Below, one piece after another: positions 2,641 through 26,556 of a stretch of 29,836 bases of DNA. The notes under the pieces are model-generated. The model did no database searches. It was not told the DNA's origin and saw only the letters and a list, made by a program, of their open reading frames with translations. The translations under genes and the position numbers were made by a program. The stretch covers positions 1 to 29,836 of the IMG/VR virus record IMGVR_UViG_3300005588_000078. One strand, 5' to 3'. The DNA comes from a virus. Position 1 is the stretch's first letter. Every line of letters starts with the position of its first letter.

Positions 2641-3378
2641 ATGGCATTCGACCTCTCATCCATCTCTTCCACGAAACAGGGCAAGCCTCCGCGCGTGATC
2701 GTCTACGGCGAGCACGGGCTGGGTAAGACCACCTTCGCGGCCGGTGCCCCGGCGCCGATCTTCATCCCGACCGAGGACGGCCTGGACAGCATCGACGCCA
2801 AGGCGTTCCCGCTCTGCCAGTCCTACGAGGACATTCTCAGCGCGATCGGCACGCTCTACAACGAGCCGCACGACTTCCGCACGGCGGTCCTCGACTCCCT
2901 CGATTGGGCCGAGGCGCTCATCGCCAAGAAGGTCGAGGCCGAGTTCAGCGAAGCGGACCGCAGCTATGGCAAGGACCGCTCGCTCATCGCGAACTTCATG
3001 CGCGAGATGCTCGAGGGCCTGAACGCCCTTCGGCTCGACCGCGGCATGGCGATCGTCCTGACGGCGCACTGCGAGATCCGCAAGTTCGACGACCCCACCG
3101 GCGACTCCTACGACCGCTTCGAGCTCAAGCTCAGCAAGCACTGCAAGCCGCTCGTGCAGGAGTGGGCCGATGTCGTCGGCTTCACCCAGATCAAGGCCAT
3201 CGTCCGCAAGGAGGACGCCGGCTTCAACAAGAAGCGCGGGCGCGCGATCGACCAGGGCGAGCGCGTGCTCCGCACCGAGCCGGCCGCCGCCTACGACGCG
3301 AAGAACCGTTACGGGCTTCCGCCCGAGCTGCCGCTGCTGTGGTCGGCGTTCGCCGATTCGTTGTCGGAGGCCGGGTAA
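2641..3378 (+). CDS. P-loop ATPase, Sak4/Rad51-like phage recombinase
   Basis: This 245-residue protein has a Walker A motif, GEHGLGKTT, at residues 23-31, following a strand (RVIVY). A Walker B-like strand AVLDSLDWAE lies near residues 82-91. The small single-domain RecA-like fold, with no other domain, matches the AAA_24 phage NTP-binding family (Sak4-like). Members of that family promote single-strand annealing or exchange together with an SSB. Its neighbours fit: a DUF669 SSB-like protein, a RecB/Cas4-like nuclease and a helicase follow. It probably acts in phage recombination-dependent replication. The ATG has a good SD in the C/A-rich leader. The stop overlaps the HNH start (TAATG). Confidence 0.8.
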   Translation: MAFDLSSISSTKQGKPPRVIVYGEHGLGKTTFAAGAPAPIFIPTEDGLDSIDAKAFPLCQSYEDILSAIGTLYNEPHDFRTAVLDSLDWAEALIAKKVEAEFSEADRSYGKDRSLIANFMREMLEGLNALRLDRGMAIVLTAHCEIRKFDDPTGDSYDRFELKLSKHCKPLVQEWADVVGFTQIKAIVRKEDAGFNKKRGRAIDQGERVLRTEPAAAYDAKNRYGLPPELPLLWSAFADSLSEAG

Positions 3379-3878
3379 TGCCTACCGCCCTCGACCGCTT
3401 CATGGCGAAGGTCCAGCCCGAGCCGAACACCGGCTGTTGGCTGTGGGACGGCGCCCTGATGAACAGTGGCTATGGCGCGTTCCGCTTCCGTGGTGGCACT
3501 CATACGGCGCACCGGGTCAGCTGGACCCTCCATCGCGGCGAGATTCCCGAGGGCGACGGCTACCACGGCACATGCGTCCTGCATCGGTGCGACGTCCGAT
3601 GCTGCGTCAACCCTGACCACCTCTTCCTCGGAACGAACGAGGACAACGTCCACGACATGTTTGCCAAGGGCAGGCAGTCGCGAGGCCACCACCCGCGTGG
3701 TGAGCGTCACAGCCAGTCTCGCCTGACGCGAGGCGAGGTTCTCCAGATCGTTCGCCGACGACGCGCCGGTGAGACCGGCGTGTCTGTGGCCAAAGACTTC
3801 GCGGTCACGCCCTCGGCGGTCGGCCGAATCATGACCGGCCGCGCATGGTCGCACGTGACCGGCATTCCGAAGCCATAG
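3378..3878 (+). CDS. HNH endonuclease, free-standing
   Basis: This 166-residue protein has an HNH_3-type domain: GYGAFRFRG near residue 30, AHRVSW, then CVLHRCDVRCCVNPDHLFLG at about 70-90, giving the His-Cys...Asn-His core with zinc-binding cysteines. The C-terminal part (about 110-160) is a predicted HTH DNA-reading segment (VSVAKDFAVTPSAVGRIM), common in homing endonucleases. It sits inside an otherwise standard ATPase-DUF669 pair, as expected for a mobile homing gene, and the two C/A-rich leaders lie one on each side of the ATPase-HNH pair. A packaging role is less likely since it is far from terL. Confidence 0.85.
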   Translation: MPTALDRFMAKVQPEPNTGCWLWDGALMNSGYGAFRFRGGTHTAHRVSWTLHRGEIPEGDGYHGTCVLHRCDVRCCVNPDHLFLGTNEDNVHDMFAKGRQSRGHHPRGERHSQSRLTRGEVLQIVRRRRAGETGVSVAKDFAVTPSAVGRIMTGRAWSHVTGIPKP

Positions 3879-4381: not shown

Positions 4382-5473
4382 GTGGCTGCGCTCCCTCCCA
4401 CCTCTAGCCCCACGGTCGACGCGATTTTCGCGGCGTACGTGGACCGCGAGCGCCAGGCGCCGCGCCGGGTTCATCTCGGCGCGAGTCGCATCGGGCACGA
4501 GTGCGGGCGAGCCCTCTGGTACGAGTACCGGTGGGCGCTGCGGCCGGAGTGGGAGGGGCGCATGCTGCGCCTCTTCGAGTCGGGGCACCGCGAAGAAGCG
4601 CGGGTGATCTCGAACCTTCGACGGATCGGCGTGACTGTCGACGAGAAGGACGCGACCGGTAAGCAATATCGGTTTGGCCTGTTCGGCGAGCACTTCGGCG
4701 GCTCAATGGATGGCGCCCTCCTCGGGCTGCTCGAGGCCCCGAAGACCTGGCACGTCTTCGAGGGCAAGACGATGAACACCAAGGCGTTCGAGAAGCTGCG
4801 CAAGTCGGCTGTCTTGAACCACTCCATGGTTGCCGAGTCCGGGGGCGTGCGCGAGGTGAAGCCTCAGCACTACGCCCAGATGCAGATCTACATGGGGCTG
4901 TCCGGCATGACGCGGGCGGCCTACTTCGCCGTCTGCAAGGAGACCGACGCGATCTACTATGAGCGCGTCCACTTCAAGCGCGCGGTCTTCGAGCGGCTGG
5001 TGGGTCGAGCCGAGCAGGTGCTCAAGGCAACCGAGCCGCTGACCCGGATCAGCAGCGACCCCATGCGCCCGCCGTGCGTGTGGTGCGACTTCCGCGAGCT
5101 CTGCCAGGTCTCAGACTTCGACGAGCCGCGGACCGCGGACGTGAGCTGCCGGACCTGCGTCCACGCGACGCCCATCCTCGAAGGCGAGGGCGCGCGGTGG
5201 CGGTGCGAGCACCACGACAAGCCGCTGACCCCGCAGGCCCAGGCGCGCGCCTGCGACGAGCACCTGTTCATTCCCGCGCTCGTGCCGGCCGGCGAGCCGG
5301 TGGACGCGGGGGACGGCTGGGTCGCCTACAAGAAGCGCGACGGGCGCGTCTTCCTGAACGTCGCGGCGTCCGGCTTCCCGGCCAAGGACGCGCCGCACTA
5401 CGCGAGCGACGACCTGTCGAAGCTGCCGGCGTCCGCGCTCGGCGTGACCGATCTGGCCGAGGTCGCCGAGTGA
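4382..5473 (+). CDS. Cas4/RecB-like PD-(D/E)XK nuclease with Fe-S cysteines
   Basis: This 363-residue protein starts at GTG 4382, 3 bases after the DUF669 stop. The nuclease core shows D110 (GSMDG) and E127-G-K129 (FEGK), the PD-(D/E)XK signature, preceded by RIGHECGRALWYEY with C41. With C232, C235 and C241 (CVWCDFRELC) this gives the one-plus-three cysteine pattern that binds a 4Fe-4S cluster in Cas4 and AddB nucleases. A second cysteine group (SCRTC...WRCEHH, about residues 255-280) may bind zinc. It probably resects DNA ends for the annealing ATPase (inference). A 4-base GTGA overlap links it to the helicase gene. Confidence 0.8.
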   Translation: MAALPPTSSPTVDAIFAAYVDRERQAPRRVHLGASRIGHECGRALWYEYRWALRPEWEGRMLRLFESGHREEARVISNLRRIGVTVDEKDATGKQYRFGLFGEHFGGSMDGALLGLLEAPKTWHVFEGKTMNTKAFEKLRKSAVLNHSMVAESGGVREVKPQHYAQMQIYMGLSGMTRAAYFAVCKETDAIYYERVHFKRAVFERLVGRAEQVLKATEPLTRISSDPMRPPCVWCDFRELCQVSDFDEPRTADVSCRTCVHATPILEGEGARWRCEHHDKPLTPQAQARACDEHLFIPALVPAGEPVDAGDGWVAYKKRDGRVFLNVAASGFPAKDAPHYASDDLSKLPASALGVTDLAEVAE

Positions 5474-7071
5474 CCTACCAACTCCGCGACTACCAGCGCC
5501 AGGCCGTTGACGGGCTGTGGCGCTACTTCGAGACGAAGACCGGCAACCCGCTGGTCGTCCTACCGACGGGCTCGGGCAAGAGCCTGGTGCAGGCCGCGTT
5601 CATCCAAGAGGTGCGCGAGCGCTACCCGAGCGAGCGGATCCTGGTGCTCTCGCACGTCAAGGAGATCGTGCTGCAGAACGCGCGCAAGCTCGATGCGCTG
5701 CTCCCGCCCGGCACCGTGGGCGTCTACTCGGCGGGGCTCGGGAGTCGGGACCTCGGGTTCCCGGTGACGGTCGCCGGCATCCAGAGCGTGGCCCACCGCG
5801 CCGACGACCTCGGTCCCATCGACCTGGTGATCGTCGACGAGGCGCACTTGGTGCCGCCGAGCGGCGAGGGTCGCTACCGAACGCTGCTCGGCATCCTCAC
5901 CGAGCGGAACCCGCACCTCAAGGTGATCGGCCTGAGCGCCACGCCCTACCGCCTCAAGAGCGGACTGCTCCACCGGGGCGAGGGGCGTTTGTTCACCGAC
6001 ATCGCGGTCGACGTCCCGGTCGGCGAGCTGATCGCCAAGGGCTACCTCAGCCCGCTGCGCAGTAAGGGCGGGCACGCGCGGGCGGACGTATCCGGCGTGA
6101 AGACGCGTGGCGGCGAGTTCGTCAAGGGCGAGCTCGAGCGGGCCGTGAACCATGGCGAGCTCATCGAGGCGGCGCTGGATGAGGTCGAGCGCTTCGCACA
6201 CGACCGACGCTCGTGGATCGTCTTCTGCGCGGGCGTGGCCCACGCCAAGGCGGTCACCCTCTCGCTCCAGCGGCGGGGCATCTCGGCCGCGTGCGTGACC
6301 GGCAAGACCAAGCGACGCGAGCGGGACCTGGTCCTCGAGCGCTTCAAGGCGGGGCGCCTCCGCGCAGTCGTCAACGTGGATGTGCTGACGATCGGCTTCG
6401 ATGCGCCGGGCGTCGACTGCGTGGTGATGCTGCGCCCGACGCAGAGCGCCGGCCTCTACGTCCAGATGCTCGGGCGCGGGATGCGGATCGCGCCGGGCAA
6501 GGCGGACTGCCTGGTCCTCGACTTCGCCGGCAACGTCGAGCGCCACGGGCCGGTCGATGACGTCCAGGTCACCGACGGTCCGAAGCGCAAGGGTGCCGGG
6601 ACGGCGCCGGTCAAGCTCTGCCCCGAGTGCGATGAGTACGTGCGCGCCGCCGCTCGCGAGTGCGTCTGCGGCTACCTGTTCGCCGTCGACGCCAGGCCCC
6701 CGCACGAGAGCCAGGCGAGTCGCGCCGCGGTGCTCAAGGCGGACCGCAAGCCCGAAGAGGTGTTGGTGGACGGCGTTCGATTCAAGGTCCACCGCAAGCC
6801 CGGCAAGCCGCCGAGCCTGCGGGTCGAGTACCAGTGCGGGCTCGCGGTCTATCGCGAGTGGATCTGCCTCGAACACCAGGGCTTCGCGAAGCGCAAGGCG
6901 CACGCCTGGTGGAAGCGAATGGCCAAGAGCGACCCCCCGGCGAGCGTGGACGAAGCCATCGCGCGATCGGGTGAGGTCGCGAAACCGAGCGCCATCCTCG
7001 TGGCGAAGGATGGGAAATACATGCGGGTCAGCGGGTACCAGTTCGCTCCTGTCGCGGAGGCTGCGGAATGA
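5470..7071 (+). CDS. DEAD/DEAH-box superfamily 2 helicase
   Basis: This 533-residue protein starts at GTG 5470. Helicase motifs are clear: a Q-motif-like LRDYQRQAV at the N-terminus, motif I PTGSGKS (32-38), motif II DEAH (123-126), motif III SAT (156-158), and the C-terminal motifs near residues 300-345 (VDVLTIGFDAPGVDCVV, MLGRGMRI). A zinc ribbon, CPECDEYV...CVCGYLF, lies at about residues 384-400. The C-terminal 130 residues are lysine-rich and may bind DNA. Such UvrB/RecG-like helicases are common in phage replication operons and may help replisome loading or branch migration. It is linked by ATGA overlap to the primase gene. Confidence 0.9.
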   Translation: MTYQLRDYQRQAVDGLWRYFETKTGNPLVVLPTGSGKSLVQAAFIQEVRERYPSERILVLSHVKEIVLQNARKLDALLPPGTVGVYSAGLGSRDLGFPVTVAGIQSVAHRADDLGPIDLVIVDEAHLVPPSGEGRYRTLLGILTERNPHLKVIGLSATPYRLKSGLLHRGEGRLFTDIAVDVPVGELIAKGYLSPLRSKGGHARADVSGVKTRGGEFVKGELERAVNHGELIEAALDEVERFAHDRRSWIVFCAGVAHAKAVTLSLQRRGISAACVTGKTKRRERDLVLERFKAGRLRAVVNVDVLTIGFDAPGVDCVVMLRPTQSAGLYVQMLGRGMRIAPGKADCLVLDFAGNVERHGPVDDVQVTDGPKRKGAGTAPVKLCPECDEYVRAAARECVCGYLFAVDARPPHESQASRAAVLKADRKPEEVLVDGVRFKVHRKPGKPPSLRVEYQCGLAVYREWICLEHQGFAKRKAHAWWKRMAKSDPPASVDEAIARSGEVAKPSAILVAKDGKYMRVSGYQFAPVAEAAE

Positions 7072-9383
7072 ATCCCTGTCTCGAACGAGCGCTCGAAGCC
7101 CTCGAGGCCGGCATCAGCGTGATCCCGGTCAAGCCGGGCGGCAGCAAGGCGCCGGCCATTCCGAACCTTTCGACCTACTTCAAGCGCCACGCGACGCTCG
7201 ATGAGATCGAAGGCTGGTGGCGCGACCCTCGACGCGGCATCGGGTTCGTGGGCGGGGCCATCTCGGGGCAACTCGAGATCCTCGACTTCGACTCCGAGCA
7301 GGTCTTCGCCGACTGGCTCAGCGCGGTCGATGAGTCGGGCCTGGACTCGCTCTATCGGAAGATCGCGGCCGGATACGAGGAACGTACGCCCCGCGGTCGC
7401 CACCTGCTCTACTACTGCCCCGAGGCGAAGGCGACCGCGCTCGCCCGTCGGCGGGTCGGCGACGGCTGGAAGGGCTTCATCGAGACCAAGGGCTACGGCG
7501 GCTACGGCATCGCCGCTCCTAGCCCCGCGGACGTTCACGAGCTGCGCAAGCCGTACGAGCTCGTCTGCGGCGGCGTGCGCTCGATCGTCACCATCGACGA
7601 GGCTGAGCGCCAGGAGCTGTTCCGGGTCGCGCGCATCTTCGACCAGCACCCGCAGGAGGAGGCGGCGCCCCAGGTGTCGGTGCCGGTCGACCTGGACGGC
7701 GACCGCCCCGGCGACGACTACAACCGCAAGGTCGGCGTCGATCCGCGGATCCTCAAGTCGAACGGCTGGACCCCGGTCTACCGCAAGGGCGAGATGACGG
7801 CGTGGCGCCGGCCCGGCAAGAAGGACCGCGGGATCTCGGCGACCCTGAACTATGACGGCCGCGGCTTCTTCCACGTCTTCACCTCGTCGACCGAGTTCGA
7901 GCAGAACAAGAGCCACACCGGCTACCAGGTCTACGCCATCCTTGAGCACGGCGGCGACTGGTCGGCCGCGGCTCGCGCGCTCAAGGCGGACGGCTTCGGC
8001 GGGCCCGATCTGCCGACCGTGGACCTGTCGCAGTTCCGCGTGCGCCAGGAAGAGGCGCGCAACGTAGCGCCCGAGCCGACGGCTAAGGGCCGGTTCCCGA
8101 CGCACCTGCTCGACGTGCCCGGCATGGTCGGCGGGTTCCACAAGTACCTGACTGAGTGCGCTCATCACCCACAGCCGATCCTCGCGCTCGGCGCCGCCAT
8201 CGCGGCCACCGGGGCGGCGCTGGGGCGCCACGTTCGCAGCGAGACCGACCTGCGCACCAACTTCTACATCGCCGCCCTGGCGGAATCCGGGGGCGGCAAG
8301 GAGTGGTTGCGCAAGGGCATCCGCCGCGTGTTCGACGAGGCCGGCCATGGCCGCATGACGGCGGTCGACGGCGTGACCAGCGGGGCGGCCATCAACGGTG
8401 TGCTCGAGGAGACCCCGGCATGCCTGCTGATGTTCGACGAGATGGGCCACCTGATCGCCGGACTCAAGCAGGGGAACGAGACCGGGGTGCTCCCGACGCT
8501 GATGAAGCTGCACGGCCTCGCCGACGGCATCTACTACGGGCTGACCTACGCCAAGGACCGGCGCACCGGACGCCAGGGCACCGACTACAAGGTCGTCGAG
8601 CCCTGCGTCTCGGTCCTCGGGACGAGCGTGCCGCGGAAGTTCTGGGGCGCGTTCACTGGCGACGAGGTCGAGGACGGCTTTCTCAACCGGTTCCTACTGT
8701 TCCGGTCCGAGACCCCGCGCCCCGACTACCGGAAGATCAGCGCGAGTGAGAAGGCGGCGCCCGTCGTCCTCGTCGACGCGGTCAAGGCGTGGCGTCAGTG
8801 GGGCGCGCCGGGGATCGGCGAGCACGCGGAGGCTGGGGGCGGCGGACCGGGGGCCACGCGGCCCGGCCAGATCGCGGACGTCATGATGACGGGCGAGGCG
8901 GCGAACTTGCTCAGCGAGCTCGGCGAGCTGCGGGCTCAGGTCCGGGACCGGATCGAGCTGCTCGAGTCGCGGAACGAGGCGGCCATCGCGACGCTCTACA
9001 ACCGCGTCCCGGCCCACGCGATCCAACTCGCTCTCGTTCGCGCCGCTGGTCAGGCCGAACCGTGGGAGGGCGAGCTGCCCGAGATCGGCCGGGACGATGC
9101 CGAGTGGGGCGCCGAGCTCGCGCTCTACCTGGTCGAGTCGATGGCTGAGGAAGTGGGGGACCACGTGGGTGACAGCGAGCACGAGACGCGGGTGCGCAAG
9201 GCGCGCGCCTGGCTTCGGAAGAAGGGCGGGGCGACCAAGTCGGCGTTCACCAGGGCGCACCAGTCATGGAGCCCTCGGGAACGGGACGACGTCCTCAAGA
9301 GCCTCGAGGACGGGGGCGAAGTCGAGCGAGCCAAGGTGGCGACCAAGGGTCGGCCGCGGGAGGTCATCCAGTGGAAAGGGTAA
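7068..9383 (+). CDS. Primase-polymerase/DUF3987-type helicase fusion
   Basis: This 771-residue protein has two parts. The N-terminal 200 residues resemble the bifunctional primase-polymerase domain: GISVIPVKPGGSKAP at 15-29, WW..P..GIGFVGG at 50-63, and an acidic ILDFDSE (71-77) that could supply metal ligands. The C-terminal part from about residue 350 is P-loop ATPase-like, with AESGGGKE (405-412) as a degenerate Walker A and LMFDEMG (D457, E458) as Walker B, as in DUF3987 proteins. Fused primase and helicase domains would prime and unwind phage DNA. The C-terminal 100 residues look like a winged-helix tail. It ends the replication operon. Confidence 0.85.
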   Translation: MNPCLERALEALEAGISVIPVKPGGSKAPAIPNLSTYFKRHATLDEIEGWWRDPRRGIGFVGGAISGQLEILDFDSEQVFADWLSAVDESGLDSLYRKIAAGYEERTPRGRHLLYYCPEAKATALARRRVGDGWKGFIETKGYGGYGIAAPSPADVHELRKPYELVCGGVRSIVTIDEAERQELFRVARIFDQHPQEEAAPQVSVPVDLDGDRPGDDYNRKVGVDPRILKSNGWTPVYRKGEMTAWRRPGKKDRGISATLNYDGRGFFHVFTSSTEFEQNKSHTGYQVYAILEHGGDWSAAARALKADGFGGPDLPTVDLSQFRVRQEEARNVAPEPTAKGRFPTHLLDVPGMVGGFHKYLTECAHHPQPILALGAAIAATGAALGRHVRSETDLRTNFYIAALAESGGGKEWLRKGIRRVFDEAGHGRMTAVDGVTSGAAINGVLEETPACLLMFDEMGHLIAGLKQGNETGVLPTLMKLHGLADGIYYGLTYAKDRRTGRQGTDYKVVEPCVSVLGTSVPRKFWGAFTGDEVEDGFLNRFLLFRSETPRPDYRKISASEKAAPVVLVDAVKAWRQWGAPGIGEHAEAGGGGPGATRPGQIADVMMTGEAANLLSELGELRAQVRDRIELLESRNEAAIATLYNRVPAHAIQLALVRAAGQAEPWEGELPEIGRDDAEWGAELALYLVESMAEEVGDHVGDSEHETRVRKARAWLRKKGGATKSAFTRAHQSWSPRERDDVLKSLEDGGEVERAKVATKGRPREVIQWKG

Positions 9384-9654: not shown

Positions 9655-9891
9655 ATGACGCTCCACGCGCACTGCGATTGCTGCCCCAAAACGGCCCCTC
9701 TCGCGCCCGGCGACAAGCGGCCCGGGGGATGGGTCATGTGGACCGAGCGGACGGGCTCTGAGGTGCTCTCACGGCATCGCTGCCCCGAGTGCGCCGGAGC
9801 CGTCGTCACGTCCCGCGCGCGTCAGACGGTGCGGCGTGGGGACAGGGTGGCACCGGGTGCCAGAACGGAACAGGAGGGGTTGCGATGGTGA
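9655..9891 (+). CDS. Small zinc-ribbon-like protein
   Basis: A 78-residue protein with a good SD (GGAGG, 9643-9647). Two cysteine pairs, HCDCCPK near residue 8 and CPEC near residue 44, could hold one zinc ion. The C-terminal third is basic. It directly precedes and overlaps the DNA methyltransferase gene by 7 bases. Function unknown; a DNA- or protein-binding adaptor is possible. Confidence 0.6.
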   Translation: MTLHAHCDCCPKTAPLAPGDKRPGGWVMWTERTGSEVLSRHRCPECAGAVVTSRARQTVRRGDRVAPGARTEQEGLRW

Positions 9892-10625
9892 CGAAGGCAG
9901 AGGGACCGGGCTGGGTGCTGTACCTGGGTCGGTGGCAGGACACGCCACTGGCGGACGCGCGGGGCGCCACGGTCTTGACGGACCCGCCCTACACCCGCCG
10001 CAACATCCTCGGCTACCGATCGGGATCGGATGTCGACCTCAGCGGCAAGAAGGGCCAGTGGTCGATCCCCTACGCCGAGATCGGCGAGGACGATGCCCGC
10101 GAGCTTTCGCAGTGGGCCGCCAGCGCGGCGGCGTGGTGGTACGTCGCGTTCAACGACCACATCGGGTGGCACTGGCTCGAGCAGGGAGCGACCGACGCCG
10201 GCCTGCTCACCTTCGCCCCGGTCATCTGGAGCAAGACGAACCCGCCGCCCCGACTGCGCGGCGACGGCCCCGGGTCAGCCTGCGAGCACCTCATGGTGTC
10301 CCGCCAGCGCGGGCAACTGCCGGCGGCGCGCTCCGGCCATCGCCCGGGGCACTACCACGGTCCCGGGCAGAACACGCAGAGCAGCGACAAGATCGTCATC
10401 GGGCAGAAGCCGTTGTGGCTCATGCAGGCGCTCGTCCGCGACTACTCGCAGCGCGGCGACGTCATCCTGGAACCGTACGCAGGATCGGGCACGACGCTGC
10501 TCGCCGCTGTAACGGAGGGGCGCGAGGCCATCGGCGCCGAGGCGGACCCGGACCGGTTCGAGAAGGCGGCCGTCAGGCTCAGCTGTGGGTTCACGAAGTC
10601 GTTCGACTTCGGAGGCGCCGCGTGA
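9885..10625 (+). CDS. DNA methyltransferase, beta class (N6-adenine or N4-cytosine)
   Basis: This 246-residue enzyme has catalytic motif IV DPPY at residues 33-36 and the AdoMet-binding motif I, ILEPYAGSGTTLLAA, near residues 197-211. The order IV before I defines the beta class; DPPY rather than SPPY favours N6-adenine. The closing helix (EGREAIGAEADPDRFEKAAVRL) is typical. The target domain between them is short. No restriction enzyme gene lies beside it, so it is probably an orphan phage methylase protecting against host restriction or marking DNA for packaging (inference). ATG 9885 follows SD AGGAGGGG (9872-9879). Confidence 0.9.
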   Translation: MVTKAEGPGWVLYLGRWQDTPLADARGATVLTDPPYTRRNILGYRSGSDVDLSGKKGQWSIPYAEIGEDDARELSQWAASAAAWWYVAFNDHIGWHWLEQGATDAGLLTFAPVIWSKTNPPPRLRGDGPGSACEHLMVSRQRGQLPAARSGHRPGHYHGPGQNTQSSDKIVIGQKPLWLMQALVRDYSQRGDVILEPYAGSGTTLLAAVTEGREAIGAEADPDRFEKAAVRLSCGFTKSFDFGGAA

Positions 10626-17872: not shown

Positions 17873-18435
17873 GCGACGAGGACGCCAAGGAGGCGCCCGC
17901 CATCGCGAGCAAGTTCACGCCGGAGCTGGAGGCACGCATCCTTGCGCGCGTCCGTGAGGGCAACGACCTCATGATCGCGTGCCTCGCCGAGGGCGTGCCG
18001 AAGTGGCTCTACAAGGAGTGGCTGTCGGCCGCCCGCAACCCCGACGGCCGCCGCGCCAAGGAGCGCCCGAAGTTGCGGGAGCAGCTGGTCGCATGGCTCG
18101 AGAAGGTCGACCAGCATTACGCGCTCTTCGAGGCCGACTCCGTTCGCAGCCTGAACAACCCGCCGGAAAGCTGGTTCGACGCTCGGGGCCGCCTCGACAA
18201 GGGGCACATCAACCGCCTGACGTGGCTGCTGGAGCGCGTGCGACGGCAGCGCTTCGGACTGCGCGTGACCATCGATGACCTCCGCGACGAAGCCAGCAAG
18301 CGGGTCCTCGACCGGCTTCGTGAGGGGCTCGATCCGTCAACACTCGCGGTCGTCCTGGGAGTCCTCGATCCAGAGGGCAGCGAGGGCGGTGAAGGCGGGG
18401 GCGTCGACGGCGACGATTCCCTCCCTCTGTGCTGA
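17869..18435 (+). CDS. terS: Terminase small subunit (putative)
   Basis: This 188-residue protein starts at GTG 17869. Residues 15-50 form a helix-turn-helix, ELEARILARVREGNDLMIAC followed by LAEGVPKWLYKEWL, as in DNA-recognising terminase small subunits. The second half is helical (LLERVRRQRFGLRVTIDDL) and could form the ring. A flexible Gly/Glu/Asp tail closes the protein. The assignment rests on this layout and on the following terL gene, which it overlaps by 47 bases. Confidence 0.7.
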   Translation: MSDEDAKEAPAIASKFTPELEARILARVREGNDLMIACLAEGVPKWLYKEWLSAARNPDGRRAKERPKLREQLVAWLEKVDQHYALFEADSVRSLNNPPESWFDARGRLDKGHINRLTWLLERVRRQRFGLRVTIDDLRDEASKRVLDRLREGLDPSTLAVVLGVLDPEGSEGGEGGGVDGDDSLPLC

Positions 18436-19801
18436 GCCGCTCGCAACGTTCATTCCGCGGGTCTCGCCCCGCTTCGTCTATCCGCACTGGTTGGGCCCGC
18501 TCCTCGACGAGCTCGCCCGCGCCGAGGCCGCCCTACGGGGCGAGGGCCCACCGGTCCGCGTCCTCGTCTCGGTCCCGCCGCAGCACGGCAAGAGCACCGC
18601 GGTCCTCCACTGGCTCGCGCGCCTCATCGGCCGCTATCCCTGGCTCCGACACGCGTACTGCACCTACAGCGCCAGCCTGAGCACGCGCCAGTCGCGCGCC
18701 TGCCGCCGCATCTCGGTCGAGGCGGGCGTCACCCTGGACCCGAGCGCCCAGCGCCTCGAGGAGTGGCTCACGCCGCAAGAGGGTGGCATCTCGTGGACGT
18801 CCATCGGGGGTCCGCTCACCGGTAAGCCGATCGACGGGATCGGCATCATTGACGACCCGTTCAAGGATCGCCGCGAGGCCGAGAGCCAGGCCATCCGTGA
18901 GACCACTTGGGACTGGTACACCGACACCTTCCTCAGCCGCATTCACCCCGGCGCCTCGCAGTTCGTCGTCGCCACCCGGTGGCATGTCGACGACCTGAGC
19001 GGTCGGCTCGCCAAGCAAGGCGGGTGGACGGTCGTGAACCTTCCGGCCATCGACGAGGAGGGGGCCGCGCTCTGGCCCGAGGGGCGGCCGATCGACTGGC
19101 TGCTCGAACGCAAGTCCATCGTCGGCGAGTACGGCTGGTGGTCGATGTACATGGGCCAGCCCCGGCCCAAGGGCGGCGCGCTCTTCGACATCGCGACCAC
19201 CTGCAAGCTCTCGGACGTGCCCCGCACGGGCCGCGTCAGCATCGGTGTCGACCTCGCGTACACCAAGAAGACCAGCGCCGACTACAGCACGGCCGTCGTC
19301 CTTCGCGAGTGCGGCGGCAAGGTCTACGTCACCCACGTCCTGCGCGAGCAGGTCATGGCCTCCGACTTCGTCGAGCGCCTTCAGCGCCTCGGCAACCAGA
19401 ACCCCGGCGCGCCCATGGTGTGGCACGGGTCGACGACCGAGCGCGGCGGCGCCGACGCCATCCGCTCCCTCGGTCTCCCGCAGCTGCGGGCCAAGCTCGC
19501 GACCGCCGACAAGTTTGTCCGCTCGCAAGAGGTGGCCGCCGCCTGGAACCGCGGTGACGTCATCGTCCCGCATGACGCGCCCTGGTCGCGCGACTTCCTC
19601 GACGAGCTCCAAGCCTTCACCGGCGTCGGCGACCGCCATGACGACCAGGTCGACGCGCTCGCCAGCGCGTTCGATGGGCTGCCGAAGGGCAGCGGCAAGC
19701 CGCTCATCGGCGCGCCCCCTGTCTTCGGCACCGACTACGACCAGCGCTCTCCCGGCCTCAAGCGAGGCAACCCGACCCCGGCCAGCAAATGGGGCTGGTG
19801 A
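18389..19801 (+). CDS. terL: Terminase large subunit
   Basis: This is the packaging motor and headful or site-specific nuclease. From GTG 18389 (470 residues) the ATPase motifs are Walker A PPQHGKST (63-70) and Walker B IIDD (153-156). The RNase H-like nuclease has D288 (SIGVDLAYT) and DDQVD (418-422) as metal ligands. This is the P22/psiM2-like Terminase_6 type, not the Mu gp28 pattern expected with the Mu-like head genes. The start is inferred: the ORF is open back to 18275 but that part lies in the terS frame, and GTG 18389 has GAGGGC-type SD bases upstream and leaves a normal 60-residue lead. Confidence 0.9.
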   Translation: MKAGASTATIPSLCAEPLATFIPRVSPRFVYPHWLGPLLDELARAEAALRGEGPPVRVLVSVPPQHGKSTAVLHWLARLIGRYPWLRHAYCTYSASLSTRQSRACRRISVEAGVTLDPSAQRLEEWLTPQEGGISWTSIGGPLTGKPIDGIGIIDDPFKDRREAESQAIRETTWDWYTDTFLSRIHPGASQFVVATRWHVDDLSGRLAKQGGWTVVNLPAIDEEGAALWPEGRPIDWLLERKSIVGEYGWWSMYMGQPRPKGGALFDIATTCKLSDVPRTGRVSIGVDLAYTKKTSADYSTAVVLRECGGKVYVTHVLREQVMASDFVERLQRLGNQNPGAPMVWHGSTTERGGADAIRSLGLPQLRAKLATADKFVRSQEVAAAWNRGDVIVPHDAPWSRDFLDELQAFTGVGDRHDDQVDALASAFDGLPKGSGKPLIGAPPVFGTDYDQRSPGLKRGNPTPASKWGW

Positions 19802-19807
19802 TTTGCC

Positions 19808-21340
19808 ATGACCACCGCACCCGTCACCCAGCTGCGACCGCCCCGCGGGAGCAAGGCCGAGCCGCCGCCGCCGAACCGGTGGACGCGTCGGAGCGTGGTG
19901 CGCATCACGCCCGCGCAGCTCGCGGGCATCTTCTCGCAGCTCGAGCGTGGCGAGACCGAGCCGTGGGCCGATACGTGCGAGTACATGCTCCGCACGGACA
20001 CTCAGGTCCGCAGCACGTGGAACACGCTCCTCCAGTCGGTGGCCAGCGCCGAGATCCGGTGGGAGCCGAGCGTCGAAGACGACGAGCTTGCCCAGGCCGG
20101 CGCCGACTTCCTCAACGAGGCGTGGGACAAGGTCCGCTCGCGTGAGCGCACGATCCAGCACCTGCTACACGGCGAGGGCGTCGGCTGGTCGGTCGCCGAG
20201 CACGAGTGGCAGCGCATCAAGACGAGCCGCGGCTACGCCTGGTTGAGCCTCGCGCAGCACGTCGTCATGCCGCGCGACGTGAAGTTCGACCACGACTGGA
20301 TCCCCGCGGTCCGGTCCTGGGTCCGCACCAGCGAGCCTCGCGACATCGCCGACCACAGCGGCTCGATCTCGGGCGTGGCGCTGCGTGAGACGTGGCACCG
20401 CACCGACGAGGAGCCCGCGCGCTGGCTCGTCCACGTGCCCGGCGCCGTCGGCATCTCGCCGCAGATGGCGGGCATCCTCTGCGTGGTCGCCTGGCCGTGG
20501 CTTTTCAAGCGCTGGAACCAGACCTTCCGGCAGCAGGCCATGGAGCGCTTCGGCGCCCCGACGCCGTGGGGCACGACGCCCGAAGGGGCCGAGGACCCGG
20601 CGACCGAGGAGTTTCAGACGGCGCTCGAGAAGCTCAGCGCGGGCCACGCGATCGTGGTGCGTGAGGGGCAGACGATCGAACTCATCGAGCCGAGCCAGAA
20701 AGCCGGCGAGGCGTTCGACCTCGCCATCCAGTCGCAAAACGAGGACATCGCCAAGGGCATCCTTGGCAGCACCCTCAACACCGAGGGATCGAGCCAGGGC
20801 AACGGGTCGCGTGCGCTCGGCGAGAGCCAGGCCGACACGACCATCCTGCCCCGCGTCCAGGCCATGGCCGGGCGCCTCGAGCAGACGCTGGAGAACGACT
20901 TCGCGCGCCCGACTCTCGGCTTCAACGCCAAGCTCTTCGGCGGGCGCGTCCCGCCCATGCCGCGCTGCCGCGTGGTGCTGGAGCAAGAGGCGCCGCCGGT
21001 CGTTGACCGCTCCCTGGTCGATCTCGGCGTATACACCGCCAACGAGATCCGCCGCGGTGTGGGCCTCGAAGAGTGGACCGAGGAGCAGGGCGGGAGCCGC
21101 ATCGTCACCCCGGTGGCCAAGTCGGCCCCGGCGTTCGATCGCGAGCGCGAGGAGGTCGGCACGTCCGCCAGCCCTTTCGGCCGGACGCGCGAGAGGGGGC
21201 AGCTGACGCTTCCGTTGACCTCGACGCGGCGAAAGACTTCGCCGACGTCCGCCACCTCAGCGACGCGGACCGCGGGCGTGCCGTGGCCCGAATCGGGCGA
21301 CCCCGAGAGACCGCCCTCCGCGGCACCCTCGAAGCCGTAG
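19808..21340 (+). CDS. Portal protein, DUF935 (Mu gp29-like)
   Basis: The ring protein at the packaging vertex. Its 510-residue frame carries DUF935 features: ITPAQLAGIFSQLERGE near the start, SVASAEIRWEP and GWSVAEHEW near 77-140, WPWLFKRWNQTFRQQAMERF at about 230-250, and LVDLGVYTANEIRRGVGLEE near 405. From about residue 464 the sequence becomes a Thr/Ser/Pro/Arg-rich wrong-frame type (LTSTRRKTSPTSAT), while the -1 frame continues as the MuF protein. The real C-terminus is therefore probably at about 21200, and the product may continue into MuF through the G5 run at 21195-21199. Confidence 0.85.
   Translation: MTTAPVTQLRPPRGSKAEPPPPNRWTRRSVVRITPAQLAGIFSQLERGETEPWADTCEYMLRTDTQVRSTWNTLLQSVASAEIRWEPSVEDDELAQAGADFLNEAWDKVRSRERTIQHLLHGEGVGWSVAEHEWQRIKTSRGYAWLSLAQHVVMPRDVKFDHDWIPAVRSWVRTSEPRDIADHSGSISGVALRETWHRTDEEPARWLVHVPGAVGISPQMAGILCVVAWPWLFKRWNQTFRQQAMERFGAPTPWGTTPEGAEDPATEEFQTALEKLSAGHAIVVREGQTIELIEPSQKAGEAFDLAIQSQNEDIAKGILGSTLNTEGSSQGNGSRALGESQADTTILPRVQAMAGRLEQTLENDFARPTLGFNAKLFGGRVPPMPRCRVVLEQEAPPVVDRSLVDLGVYTANEIRRGVGLEEWTEEQGGSRIVTPVAKSAPAFDREREEVGTSASPFGRTRERGQLTLPLTSTRRKTSPTSATSATRTAGVPWPESGDPERPPSAAPSKP
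21194..21200 (+). other. G5 run joining the portal and MuF frames
   Basis: The portal codons are GAG AGG GGG CAG. A -1 slip of the GGG codon (or one extra G) gives GCA GCT GAC GCT and continues directly as AADASVDLDAAKDFADVRHL, the start of natural MuF sequence. The homopolymer is therefore either a frameshift site, a real indel or a sequencing error. Confidence 0.5.
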
Positions 21341-22191
21341 CGGCGCTCGAGCCGCACCTCGACGCACTGGCCGCCGGGCTAGCGGGGGTCGGCACCGAGA
21401 GCGAGGCGCGCGCCGTCCTGGAGCGCGTCCAAGCGCAGCTCGAAAGCGACACCGAGGTCGCGGGCGCCATCTGGCGCACCAATGCAAAGACTCACCTCGC
21501 CGGGCAACTCTTCGTCCGGGACATCGAACTCAAGCGCGAGAGCGTCTCGCTTGACCGCACCCCGCCGCCGACCTTCCTGAATCTCGACTTCGCCGAGGCC
21601 ATCGAGCACTTCGCTCGCCGCCGCATCCTCAGCCCCGAGGACTTCGAGGCGCTGCTCGACAGCGAGCGTTTCCGGGCGTTCACCGTGTCCCGCGCCGTCA
21701 GCGAGGGCGTCATCCGGCGCGCGTGGGCGCAGATACAGGCGGCCATGGCCGGCGACGGCACGGGCCTCGCCGACTTCATCGCCGAGCTCGAGGGCAGCGT
21801 CGACGGGGGCGGCTTCCCGGGCGGCGCACGGCGCTATCTGGAGTCGGTCTTCCGAACCTCCACGGCGACGAGTTATAACGCCGGCCGCTTCCGACAGCAG
21901 GTCGAGGCCACCAAGGGCGACGACGCCATCGTTTGGCAGTACGTGACCGCGGGCGACAATCGCGTCCGCAGCAGCCACCGCGCACTCGACGGCAAGCAGT
22001 GGGCCGTGGGCGACCCCGAAGGGCGCCGCGTCTACCCGCCGAACAGCTTCAACTGCCGCTGCGTCATGATCGTCACCGAGGACCGGGACGAGGCCGCGAT
22101 GCAGCGCGCCGCCGACGCGGCCGAGGCGCTGACCGAGGGCTTCGACGGAGCGCCGGGCGACGCCATCGAGGACGAGGCCGCGAGGGCCTGA
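21283..22191 (+). CDS. MuF-type minor head protein (SPP1 gp7/Mu gp30-like)
   Basis: A head morphogenesis protein. The MuF domain lies at about residues 180-265 from GTG 21283: YLESVFRTSTATSYNAGRF, then WQYVTAGDNRVRSSHRALDG and YPPNSFNCRCVMI, the conserved cysteine/histidine segment. Family members enter the capsid with the portal and assist assembly. The GTG has no SD, and natural coding sequence extends upstream in this frame to about 21199 without any other start codon. The protein is thus probably made as a portal-MuF fusion, and 21283 is only the first usable start. The C-terminus is Ala/Glu-rich. Confidence 0.8.
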   Translation: MARIGRPRETALRGTLEAVAALEPHLDALAAGLAGVGTESEARAVLERVQAQLESDTEVAGAIWRTNAKTHLAGQLFVRDIELKRESVSLDRTPPPTFLNLDFAEAIEHFARRRILSPEDFEALLDSERFRAFTVSRAVSEGVIRRAWAQIQAAMAGDGTGLADFIAELEGSVDGGGFPGGARRYLESVFRTSTATSYNAGRFRQQVEATKGDDAIVWQYVTAGDNRVRSSHRALDGKQWAVGDPEGRRVYPPNSFNCRCVMIVTEDRDEAAMQRAADAAEALTEGFDGAPGDAIEDEAARA

Positions 22192-23553: not shown

Positions 23554-25065
23554 ATGGCAACCGACACCCACGTCCTGTGTCTCGCACAGGCGCGACGCAC
23601 CAGTGCGCTCCGAGCCCTCGAGAAGGGCAAGCGCACCGTCCGCAATCAGATCGCCTACGAGGGCGAATGGGCCGGTCACCCGGCCGGCGAGTTCGAGTTC
23701 ACGCGCGCCCTGTTCGAGCAGATCATCGCGAACTTCGAGCGCCGCACGGACCCGGTTCCGCTCACCTATGGCCACCCCGACGGCGAGACCGCGTCGTGGA
23801 TGGGCGCCGCGGGCTGGATCCACGGTCTGGCCATCGACACCGACGAGAAGGGGCGCACCGCGCTCTTCGCCGATATGGAGTTTACCGAGCGCGCCGCGAG
23901 CCAGGTGCGCAACGGCGAGCAGAAGCACTGCTCCGTGGTCGTGGGTTTCGAGTCCATCGACGAGAAGACCGGCGAGCCCATCGGCGCCGAGCTCTTCGAG
24001 GTTGGCCTCGTGCTGAGCGCCTTCCTCGACGACATGCGCCCGCTCGCCGCGGGACGCCACCGAACCCCCCGCGCGCATGGCGCGGCCAACACACAGGAGA
24101 TCCGTGCCATGAGCATGAAGGACATTCTCAAGGAGGCGCTCAAGGAGCTGCCCGACGACGCCACCCGCGAGCAGGTGCTCGCGTACATGGATGCCGCGGC
24201 CAAGAAGGCCGAGGCCATCGAGGGCACCCCCGAGCCCGAGCCGGCCCCCGAGGCCGCCGCCGAGGACCAGGCCGCCGCCGAGGACCAGCCCGACGAGATG
24301 GCCGCCGGCAAGCCCGAGGGCGAGACCGTCGCCGCCGGTGACGAGCCGTCCGCCGACGCCGTGGCCGCCGCCGATGCGCCGGCCGAAGAGGTCGCCGCGG
24401 GCGACGCCGACCAGCCCGTCGAGATGATGGACGGCGAGGGCTCCACCGCGGAGAGCGCCGTGCAGACCGTCGTCGACGAGATCGTTGCGAGCGGTGGCGA
24501 CGCCGACCCCGTGGCGGTCGCCGCCTTCCTGCAGGATCGCGCGGGCGAGCTCGCCGCGATGTTCCTCGGCATGGGCGACGGCACCGAGGCGGACGCCGAG
24601 GCCGCGGCCATGGGCAAGCGCGCCGCGCTCGAGGCCAAGGGACTGCAGCGCAAGGTGGCCGCGCTCAGCAAGCGTGTCGCCGAGCTGGAGTCCGAGAAGA
24701 AGGCCGCCATCGACAAGGCGCTCGGCGAGAAGGTCGACGCGGCCATCGAGGCCGGCGCCTTCGAGAAGGCCGAGCGCGAGGAGCTGGTGGAGCTCGGCCG
24801 CAAGGCCCCCAAGCAGCTCGACACCCTCATCGCCAAGATGAGCGACGCCGCCCCGCCCAAGGGTCTGCCGCTCGGCCGCGTGGCCGCCCCGGCACCCGCC
24901 GCGGGCGACGACGTGAGCGACGGCGCGGGCCCGCAGACAGACGACGAGAAGGCGTACGTGGCGAGCCTCAAGAGGCGCGGCGTCAAGAACGTCGACGTGC
25001 GCCTCGGTCTCTACCGCGAGCAGAAGCAGAAGATCTCCGGCAACGAGGCGCACGAGCGCGTCTGA
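23554..25065 (+). CDS. Head maturation protease (Mu gpI-like)/scaffold
   Basis: A 503-residue protein. The first 175 residues match the Mu gpI protease: HPAGEFEFTRALFEQIIANF near 42-61, YGHP with H74, and KHCSVVV with S127, likely catalytic residues. The long acidic and Ala/Glu-rich middle (about 210-320) and the coiled coil (LQRKVAALSKRVAELESEKK, about 360-380) form the scaffold part. As in Mu I/Z, the scaffold can be made alone from an internal start at 24109. The protease would cleave scaffold and itself during capsid maturation. It precedes the decoration and major capsid genes, the standard order. Confidence 0.85.
   Translation: MATDTHVLCLAQARRTSALRALEKGKRTVRNQIAYEGEWAGHPAGEFEFTRALFEQIIANFERRTDPVPLTYGHPDGETASWMGAAGWIHGLAIDTDEKGRTALFADMEFTERAASQVRNGEQKHCSVVVGFESIDEKTGEPIGAELFEVGLVLSAFLDDMRPLAAGRHRTPRAHGAANTQEIRAMSMKDILKEALKELPDDATREQVLAYMDAAAKKAEAIEGTPEPEPAPEAAAEDQAAAEDQPDEMAAGKPEGETVAAGDEPSADAVAAADAPAEEVAAGDADQPVEMMDGEGSTAESAVQTVVDEIVASGGDADPVAVAAFLQDRAGELAAMFLGMGDGTEADAEAAAMGKRAALEAKGLQRKVAALSKRVAELESEKKAAIDKALGEKVDAAIEAGAFEKAEREELVELGRKAPKQLDTLIAKMSDAAPPKGLPLGRVAAPAPAAGDDVSDGAGPQTDDEKAYVASLKRRGVKNVDVRLGLYREQKQKISGNEAHERV
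24109..25065 (+). CDS. Internal scaffold protein (gpZ-like), in-frame start
   Basis: Within the protease gene, in frame, AGGAGA (24095-24100) lies 8 bases before ATG 24109, after a linker rich in Pro, Arg and Asn. Translation here gives a 318-residue protein (MSMKDILKEALKELPDDATR...) made of the acidic region, coiled coil and C-terminus, without the protease. The pattern matches the nested scaffolds of Mu (Z) and lambda (Nu3). Its production is inference. Confidence 0.6.
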   Translation: MSMKDILKEALKELPDDATREQVLAYMDAAAKKAEAIEGTPEPEPAPEAAAEDQAAAEDQPDEMAAGKPEGETVAAGDEPSADAVAAADAPAEEVAAGDADQPVEMMDGEGSTAESAVQTVVDEIVASGGDADPVAVAAFLQDRAGELAAMFLGMGDGTEADAEAAAMGKRAALEAKGLQRKVAALSKRVAELESEKKAAIDKALGEKVDAAIEAGAFEKAEREELVELGRKAPKQLDTLIAKMSDAAPPKGLPLGRVAAPAPAAGDDVSDGAGPQTDDEKAYVASLKRRGVKNVDVRLGLYREQKQKISGNEAHERV

Positions 25066-25629: not shown

Positions 25630-26556
25630 ATGGGACTCGCAGGATCCAACAACCTGGCGGCGGTCAACGCCGACTACATCGCGGCCTTCCAGGACTTCTT
25701 CGGGGAGGGTGTGCCGGGACTGGCGCACCACATCACCAAGGAGATCCCGGTCAGCGGCACCAAGCTCACGATCCCCAACACCCTCAGCTTCCCGCGCGTG
25801 CGCGAGTGGCTGGGCGGCAAGGTGGTCAAGAGCCTCCGCGCTCTGACGCAGGACATCACCCTCAAGACGTTCGAGGCCACCGTCGGCATCGATCGCAAGG
25901 AGGTGGACTACGACAAGAGCGGCACCGTTCAGGACACCCTGAACAGCTTCCTCGGTCAGCAGGTCTCGGCCTTCGATGACCTGCTCTTCGCGAAGCTCCT
26001 CGCCAACCCCACCGGGTACGACGGCGTCTCGCTCATCAACAACAGCCACCCCTACAGCAACTCCACCGGTGACAACCTCACCACGGACGCGCTCTCGTTC
26101 TCCTCGCTCGAGGCCATGGACACCGCCATGCGCGGCTTCCAGGACGAGACGGGCCGGCCGCTGAACATCACCCCGAACATGCTGCTCGTGGGTGAGAGCA
26201 ACCGCCACACCGCCCTGCAGATCACCGGCGCCAGCCGACCGATCTTCTACAACGCCAGCGGCGCCGAGGCTTCCAACTCGGTCATCGACGCGTGGATGAG
26301 CGAGAACCCGTTCGCCTCCCACATCGTCGTCGTGACCCCGTGGATCACCGGCACGCAGTGGTTCCTCATCGACTCGACCAAGCCGGGCGCCTCCCCCATG
26401 GTGGCGACCGTCGGCCGAGCCTTCGAGGCCATCCCCGCCACCGACAAGACGGACAGCCACCGCTGGCACCGCGACGAGTACCAGTACTCGCTCGAGGGCG
26501 ACTACGGGTTCGGCGCCGGCCTCTGGCAGCTCATCGGCGGCAAGATCGCGGCGTGA
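25630..26556 (+). CDS. Major capsid protein (Mu gpT-like)
   Basis: A 308-residue HK97-fold coat protein of the Mu gpT type: NADYIAAFQDFFGEG near the start, LTIPNTLSFPRVREWLGG at 45-62, and the landmark INNSHPYSN followed by SLEAMDTAMRGFQDETGRPL and LLVGESNR. It forms the icosahedral shell, with the protease and scaffold encoded upstream. SD AAGGA (25614-25618) is about 11 bases from the ATG. Tandem hairpins follow the stop. Confidence 0.9.
   Translation: MGLAGSNNLAAVNADYIAAFQDFFGEGVPGLAHHITKEIPVSGTKLTIPNTLSFPRVREWLGGKVVKSLRALTQDITLKTFEATVGIDRKEVDYDKSGTVQDTLNSFLGQQVSAFDDLLFAKLLANPTGYDGVSLINNSHPYSNSTGDNLTTDALSFSSLEAMDTAMRGFQDETGRPLNITPNMLLVGESNRHTALQITGASRPIFYNASGAEASNSVIDAWMSENPFASHIVVVTPWITGTQWFLIDSTKPGASPMVATVGRAFEAIPATDKTDSHRWHRDEYQYSLEGDYGFGAGLWQLIGGKIAA

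Follow-up and report, generated by a model that had tools for sequence, protein, structure and literature searches.

Predicted programmed -1 frameshifting inside a Mu-type portal gene would yield a minority portal-MuF fusion in an uncultured virus

In an uncultured virus represented by the IMG/VR record IMGVR_UViG_3300005588_000078, the coding sequences for the portal protein and for the MuF head protein lie in two reading frames that pass directly from one into the other, and comparison with related sequences leads us to propose, with a probability of roughly 0.85, that the two are joined by programmed -1 ribosomal frameshifting at a C_CCU_UUC heptamer, which would produce a minority portal-MuF fusion and set the ratio of portal to fusion. 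The window referred to throughout is the whole stretch of DNA that was analysed, positions 1-29,836 of this record. That portal and MuF are united by a programmed -1 change which sets the ratio of portal to fusion had been put forward in an original prediction made from the window alone, and this central idea is well supported by the comparison of relatives; the slip site proposed at that time is replaced here by another.

The portal gene (19808-21340, plus strand, with its stop codon at 21338-21340) directly follows the large terminase gene (18275-19801) and encodes an unshifted product of 510 aa assigned to phrog_113 and to the Pfam family PF06074 (E=2.9e-50), whose Portal_Mu domain is complete in the window and spans approximately residues 55-415. 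The MuF frame, which is -1 relative to the portal frame, is open from 21007 to a stop codon at 22189-22191 and matches Phage_Mu_F (Pfam, E=8e-19) and phrog_220 (E=7e-33); the Phage_Mu_F domain itself (PF04233) occupies 21757-22071 on the plus strand, corresponding to residues 229-333 of the ORF opened at 21073. Both the ORFs and the Pfam matches agree with the earlier observation that portal coding runs on into MuF coding in the -1 frame without a start codon. The portal/MuF pair sits between the terminase and the genes for a Mu-like protease (23554-25065) and a Mu-like gpT major head protein (25630-26556), and does not precede a tape measure gene, the position that characterizes the tail assembly chaperones G/GT. 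Pfam also identifies an AAA_24 ATPase (2641-3378), a Prim-Pol primase with DUF3987 (7068-9383) and an N6/N4 DNA methylase (9789-10625), such that a Mu-type head module adjoins replication genes of a different type.

In Mu-type portals, core and C-terminal tail ordinarily share one frame, and most of those surveyed reach the end of the profile (positions 515-522); zero-frame homology of the window's portal stops at position 440-446 of 523. The tail is found in the -1 frame, the first ~115 residues of which resemble the C-terminal tail of 145 Mu-type portals (hhalign: 70 columns, probability 88%, single-comparison E=2.9e-6). Taken together, this match and the early end of zero-frame homology place the shift, on profile evidence, inside the portal gene, ~115 residues ahead of the usual portal/MuF boundary. 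Since the Portal_Mu domain is itself complete, the portal assignment stands. The -1 frame extension (21178-22191, plus strand) comprises a linker, the portal C-terminal tail (to ~21560) and MuF, and the product reached through it would be a fusion of 794 aa composed of portal core, portal tail and MuF. MuF sequence had been predicted to begin at about 21199; natural coding in the -1 frame is indeed present there, but the portal tail comes first and MuF proper follows at ~21560.

The same -1 change occurs at the same place in three relatives: IMGVR_UViG_3300040801_003416 (L094; portal 50% and MuF 63-64% identical to the window), IMGVR_UViG_3300006467_000251 (L183; 47% and 64%) and IMGVR_UViG_3300043395_001869 (L175; 30% and 35%). 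Together with the window these constitute class 1, of which no more than four members were found; two contig scans of sequenced genomes with MuF alignments, host genomes included, returned no relative. A second contig, IMGVR_UViG_3300027828_000146, starts at window position 20793, is identical over 9044 bp, passing through the junction, and extends 3155 bp beyond the window end. These sequences decide whether the frame change is genuine. In-frame portal-MuF fusions do exist, at loci L216, L040 and L178 and in Microbacterium phages (PMC7302621), and the plain alternative offered at the outset was that the true gene is such a fusion, broken by a sequencing or assembly error at a run of G residues. 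Recurrence of the same change in four diverged sequences and in an identical second contig, along with a downstream portal-frame tail conserved through synonymous changes, a pattern that would not arise from an error, leaves this account with a negligible probability, and on these comparisons sequencing error is effectively refuted. Equally hard to credit is the notion of gene decay in a defective prophage lineage, with no fusion made: the contigs are uncultured fragments, but both frames are conserved on either side of the junction across 30-64% identity, and the adjoining head genes are intact.

The MuF frame also seems to lack a place at which translation might begin afresh. As originally claimed, it has no start codon up to GTG 21283: GTG 21073 lies ahead of the homology, and from there to GTG 21283 the frame contains no ATG, GTG or TTG. 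The MuF frame of L094 is interrupted by a stop 21 nt upstream of the conserved heptamer described below, and none of the three codons occurs from that point to 168 nt after the heptamer; in L175 they are absent from -240 to +225 relative to it. No start in L094, L183 or L175 corresponds to the window's GTG 21283 (+111 from the heptamer), and common alternative start codons are likewise missing from the MuF frame near its conserved start in class 1. By its domain the protein belongs to the MuF/SPP1 gp7 head morphogenesis family (PF04233), in which an own gene with an own start is common, though not defining; here no start codon stands at the conserved beginning. Because the MuF frame has no conserved start codon in the window, L094 or L175, independent MuF initiation is unlikely. 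Portal and tail-MuF might nevertheless be separate proteins were MuF translation to begin at an unconventional codon, or to resume by coupled re-initiation close to where the portal gene ends, and phages related to RcapMu lend this some plausibility, since in two of their loci (L213 and L214) a separate tail-MuF gene has an ATG overlapping the portal stop and RcapMu MuF itself is annotated with a late start. For class 1 we consider such an arrangement improbable, given the missing start codons, the unmatched GTG 21283 and portal stops that fall at differing positions ~115-166 nt past the heptamer, none of them next to a start.

If the two frames are instead connected by programmed frameshifting, the best slip site is predicted to be CCCTTTC at 21172-21178 (plus strand), read C_CCT_TTC with portal codons CCT TTC and -1 frame codons CCC TTT. 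An alignment of the window, L094, L183 and L175 leaves CCCTTT as the one hexamer near the junction that does not vary; the portal frame reads C_CCT_TTC in the first three and C_CCT_TTA in L175, the most distant, and both versions are canonical X_XXY_YYZ heptamers in the zero frame, located where the two frames overlap. No second in-frame XXXYYYZ occurs in the window's portal gene, and the window genes outside the junction contain 6 in 5402 codons. The motif is also conserved beyond codon needs, in that CCCTTT is common to all four sequences and the rare codon CCT, which accounts for 4% of Pro codons in the window genes (10/248), is shared. Rare codons encode 25-26 of the conserved residues; any two of the close relatives have only 2-4 of these codons in common, and over the whole fusion just two are common to the window, L094 and L183, one of them the CCT of the heptamer; in L175, the TTA of the heptamer is the sole TTA among 64 Leu codons. 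In Escherichia coli, H_HH.U_UU.Y heptamers (C_CC.U_UU.C included) rank with the most efficient, and a shift of >0.1% is seen at C_CC.U_UU.A without a stimulator (PMC4066793).

The slip had originally been assigned to AGG GGG within a G5 run, which lies as described at 21195-21199 (plus strand), 23 nt downstream of the heptamer. AGG_GGG is not a tandem-slip site, and the run is not conserved: the region reads AGAGGGGGC in the window, CCGGGGC in L094 and CGCCGGC in L183, and is absent from L175; at the G5 site itself L094 reads CCGGGGCAG and L183 reads CGCCGGCAG, and L175 is without a G run. Because the run differs in L094 and L183 and is missing in L175, while C_CCT_TT(C/A) is invariant, we reject it as the slip site. 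The comparison of junctions called for earlier thus found the frame change shared by L094, L183 and L175, and the G run not kept.

Beyond the slip codons, the unshifted portal continues for 53 residues (21179-21340, plus strand) in a tail that contains QLTLPLT (21200-21220, plus strand). This motif, QLxLPLT, overlaps the -1 frame linker and is kept in the portal frame of the window, L094 (4002-4022) and L183 (6363-6383), and not in L175; it resembles the bacterial sliding-clamp-binding motif (QLxLPL type), an odd element in a portal protein. Across its seven codons in the window, L094 and L183, on which the selection test rests, each pair differs by 3-4 synonymous vs 1-2 non-synonymous codon changes in the portal frame, and by 0 synonymous vs 5-6 non-synonymous changes when the region is read in the -1 frame. 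Selection on the portal frame extends to ~21220, past the point near 21199 at which natural coding in that frame was earlier said to end. Purifying selection on the portal frame persists past the heptamer, and this indicates that the unshifted protein too is in use, so that two products would be made. The same selection, which runs through QLxLPLT 28-48 nt past the heptamer, could be explained if the -1 shift were real but took place downstream of CCCTTT, at ~21199-21225, so that QLxLPLT would be placed in both products. We regard a slip in this interval as unlikely: it contains no in-frame XXXYYYZ or other canonical heptamer and no conserved motif, its G5 run is not conserved, L175 lacks QLxLPLT yet retains CCCTTT, and dual coding is in any case expected if both products are made.

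Slippage at CCCTTTC might be assisted by an internal Shine-Dalgarno-like sequence, AGGAGGT (21150-21156, plus strand), which leaves a gap of 16 nt between AGGAGG and the heptamer. Sequence and spacing are the same in the window, L094 and L183, and L175 has GGGAGG at 13 nt. AGGAGG is partly explained by the codons for E-E-V, and because it overlaps these Glu-Glu codons its role as a stimulator is suggestive only. The -1 frameshift of dnaX likewise combines a slippery heptamer with an upstream Shine-Dalgarno-like stimulator; the dnaX spacing is roughly 10 nt, shorter than the 16 nt here, its shifted product is the shorter one whereas the window's is the longer, and no hairpin was found here. Pseudoknot-free folding of 40-100 nt downstream in the four class-1 sequences gave no RNA structure that beats shuffles or is shared, and on this result a downstream hairpin is not favoured as a stimulator.

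From the conserved heptamer and the two conserved frames we infer a division of labour among ribosomes. Most would read the portal gene to its stop at 21338-21340 and make the 510-residue short portal; a minority would slip back one base on C_CCT_TTC (21172-21178), with tRNA-Pro re-pairing from CCU to CCC and tRNA-Phe from UUC to UUU, possibly stimulated by the internal AGGAGGT, and would then read the portal C-terminal tail and MuF to 22189-22191, giving a 794-residue fusion that would be incorporated into virions. In the assembled portal ring the C-termini of the subunits point into the head, and for this reason the slip frequency would set the number of MuF domains held at the portal vertex within the head. 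The gp7 protein of SPP1, which is of the MuF type, attaches to the portal, is taken into the procapsid at a few copies and supports infection (PMC6316719); what gp7 accomplishes through binding would here be accomplished through recoding, by a fusion produced at a fixed rate.

A comparable arrangement is found in the cultured Rhodobacter phages RcapMu and RcWaterboi and in EBPR siphovirus 4, each with a short Mu-type portal and MuF in the -1 frame. In all three records the portal stop lies one codon past an A8/A9 run, and the -1 frame (RHVCFAE...GPVERI...) leads straight into MuF, with the first start 63-98 nt later. RcapMu (JN190960) thus resembles class 1 in its short Mu-type portal and in a MuF frame without a usable start, and differs in having an A8/A9 run, one codon before the portal stop, instead of CCCTTTC. 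The record describes the portal as 'shorter than related mu-like phages; possible +1 frameshift would allow readthrough' and MuF as lacking a good ribosome-binding site, so its authors noticed the oddity, and their annotation is the first hint of the same arrangement. In the RcapMu (L184, 592-3545) and RcWaterboi (MW677528; L190, 592-3524) loci, MuF was published with a late start codon, and the conserved -1 reading opens ~90 nt before the annotated start, at the A8/A9 run at the portal end. At position 532 of the RcapMu locus, the record also marks a 'potential -1 frameshift' in a small gene (RcapMu35) just before the portal.

A scan for RcapMu-type loci recovered 30 more. An A8/A9 run with a -1 relation is present in 20 loci (the three records included), usually with no usable start, and 16 of the scanned loci have no other A8+ run in the DNA examined; L205 and L207, with A6 and A8 runs, are exceptions with a different frame relation, and L215 and L220-L222 were left out of the judgement on this set. 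In L213 (2983) and L214 (2956) the portal tail and MuF form a separate gene with an ATGA overlap with the portal stop, and L210-L212, L216 and L217 have in-frame portal-MuF fusions. With -1 loci at A runs, separate genes and in-frame fusions side by side, one family thus appears to possess several ways of expressing the portal/MuF pair. Among the in-frame fusions, L210-L212 (~2983-2991) and L217 (2923-2931) retain A9 at the junction, where a -1 slip meets a stop within four codons and slippage would give a short portal. Slippage at the A8/A9 runs of RcapMu-type loci may be ribosomal or transcriptional. The runs are unrelated to CCCTTTC, yet they occupy the same place in the portal, and we read these loci as a probable independent parallel that supports frameshifting in class 1. 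In other lineages, A runs with a -1 change at the portal/MuF junction were seen in L141 (A9, 3781-3789), L110 (A10, 1324-1333) and L030 (A10, 4554-4563); L110 and L141 are candidates only, and the L030 contig contains another frame break, so an error is possible there. L108, L117 and L180 looked similar in the survey and were set aside, with neither a heptamer nor an A run that explains the shift.

Frameshifts in phage tail and capsid genes are already known (PMC6316719). The lambda tail assembly chaperones G/GT, whose -1 frameshift was described by Xu, Hendrix and Duda (2004; as cited in PMC6316719 and PMC7302621), resemble class 1 in having two overlapping morphogenesis frames and a -1 shift at X_XXY_YYZ, and, as proposed for the class-1 products, in a fixed ratio of short and long product; the genes here are portal and MuF, on the head side, with a structural ring protein as the short product. 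The major head protein of phage A2, with a -1 frameshift (as cited in PMC5009743), and SPP1 gp17.1, with a +1 frameshift (PMC6316719), each have a C-terminally extended minor form that is built into the virion, as the fusion here would be; the base protein in the present case is a portal and the extension is another known head protein, MuF. In-frame portal-MuF fusions of Microbacterium phages in clusters EA3/EA5/EA8 and EB (PMC7302621) combine the two in one polypeptide, as the class-1 fusion would, but in a permanent 1:1 ratio, whereas the class-1 fusion is proposed to be a minority product. No report of a portal-MuF frameshift was found in the literature searched, most subscription journals, and with them the RcapMu paper, lying outside the search, and the accessible portion of a 2016 recoding review makes no mention of portal proteins; frameshifting for the portal/MuF pair seems not to have been described before.

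Only the outline is known of how a few copies of MuF come to lie inside the head at the portal vertex, and a portal-MuF fusion made by frameshifting, if true, would provide a direct and measurable mechanism for MuF copy number. Because MuF-type proteins can carry toxin domains (PMC6316719), the mode of their expression matters. The comparison also exposes mis-annotation, in that the MuF genes of RcapMu and RcWaterboi have a seemingly artificial late start. We lean towards the view that tailed phages in general use portal-to-MuF recoding to control stoichiometry, that this device has arisen repeatedly, with C_CCT_TTY here and A8-A9 in RcapMu-like loci at the same point in the portal, and that the mixture of short portal and portal-MuF would be the selected state, since slippage in the in-frame fusions that keep A9 (L210-L212 and L217) would make the short portal. 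If general, this would constitute a conserved head-side recoding site of tailed-phage genomes, comparable to the frameshift of the tail chaperones.
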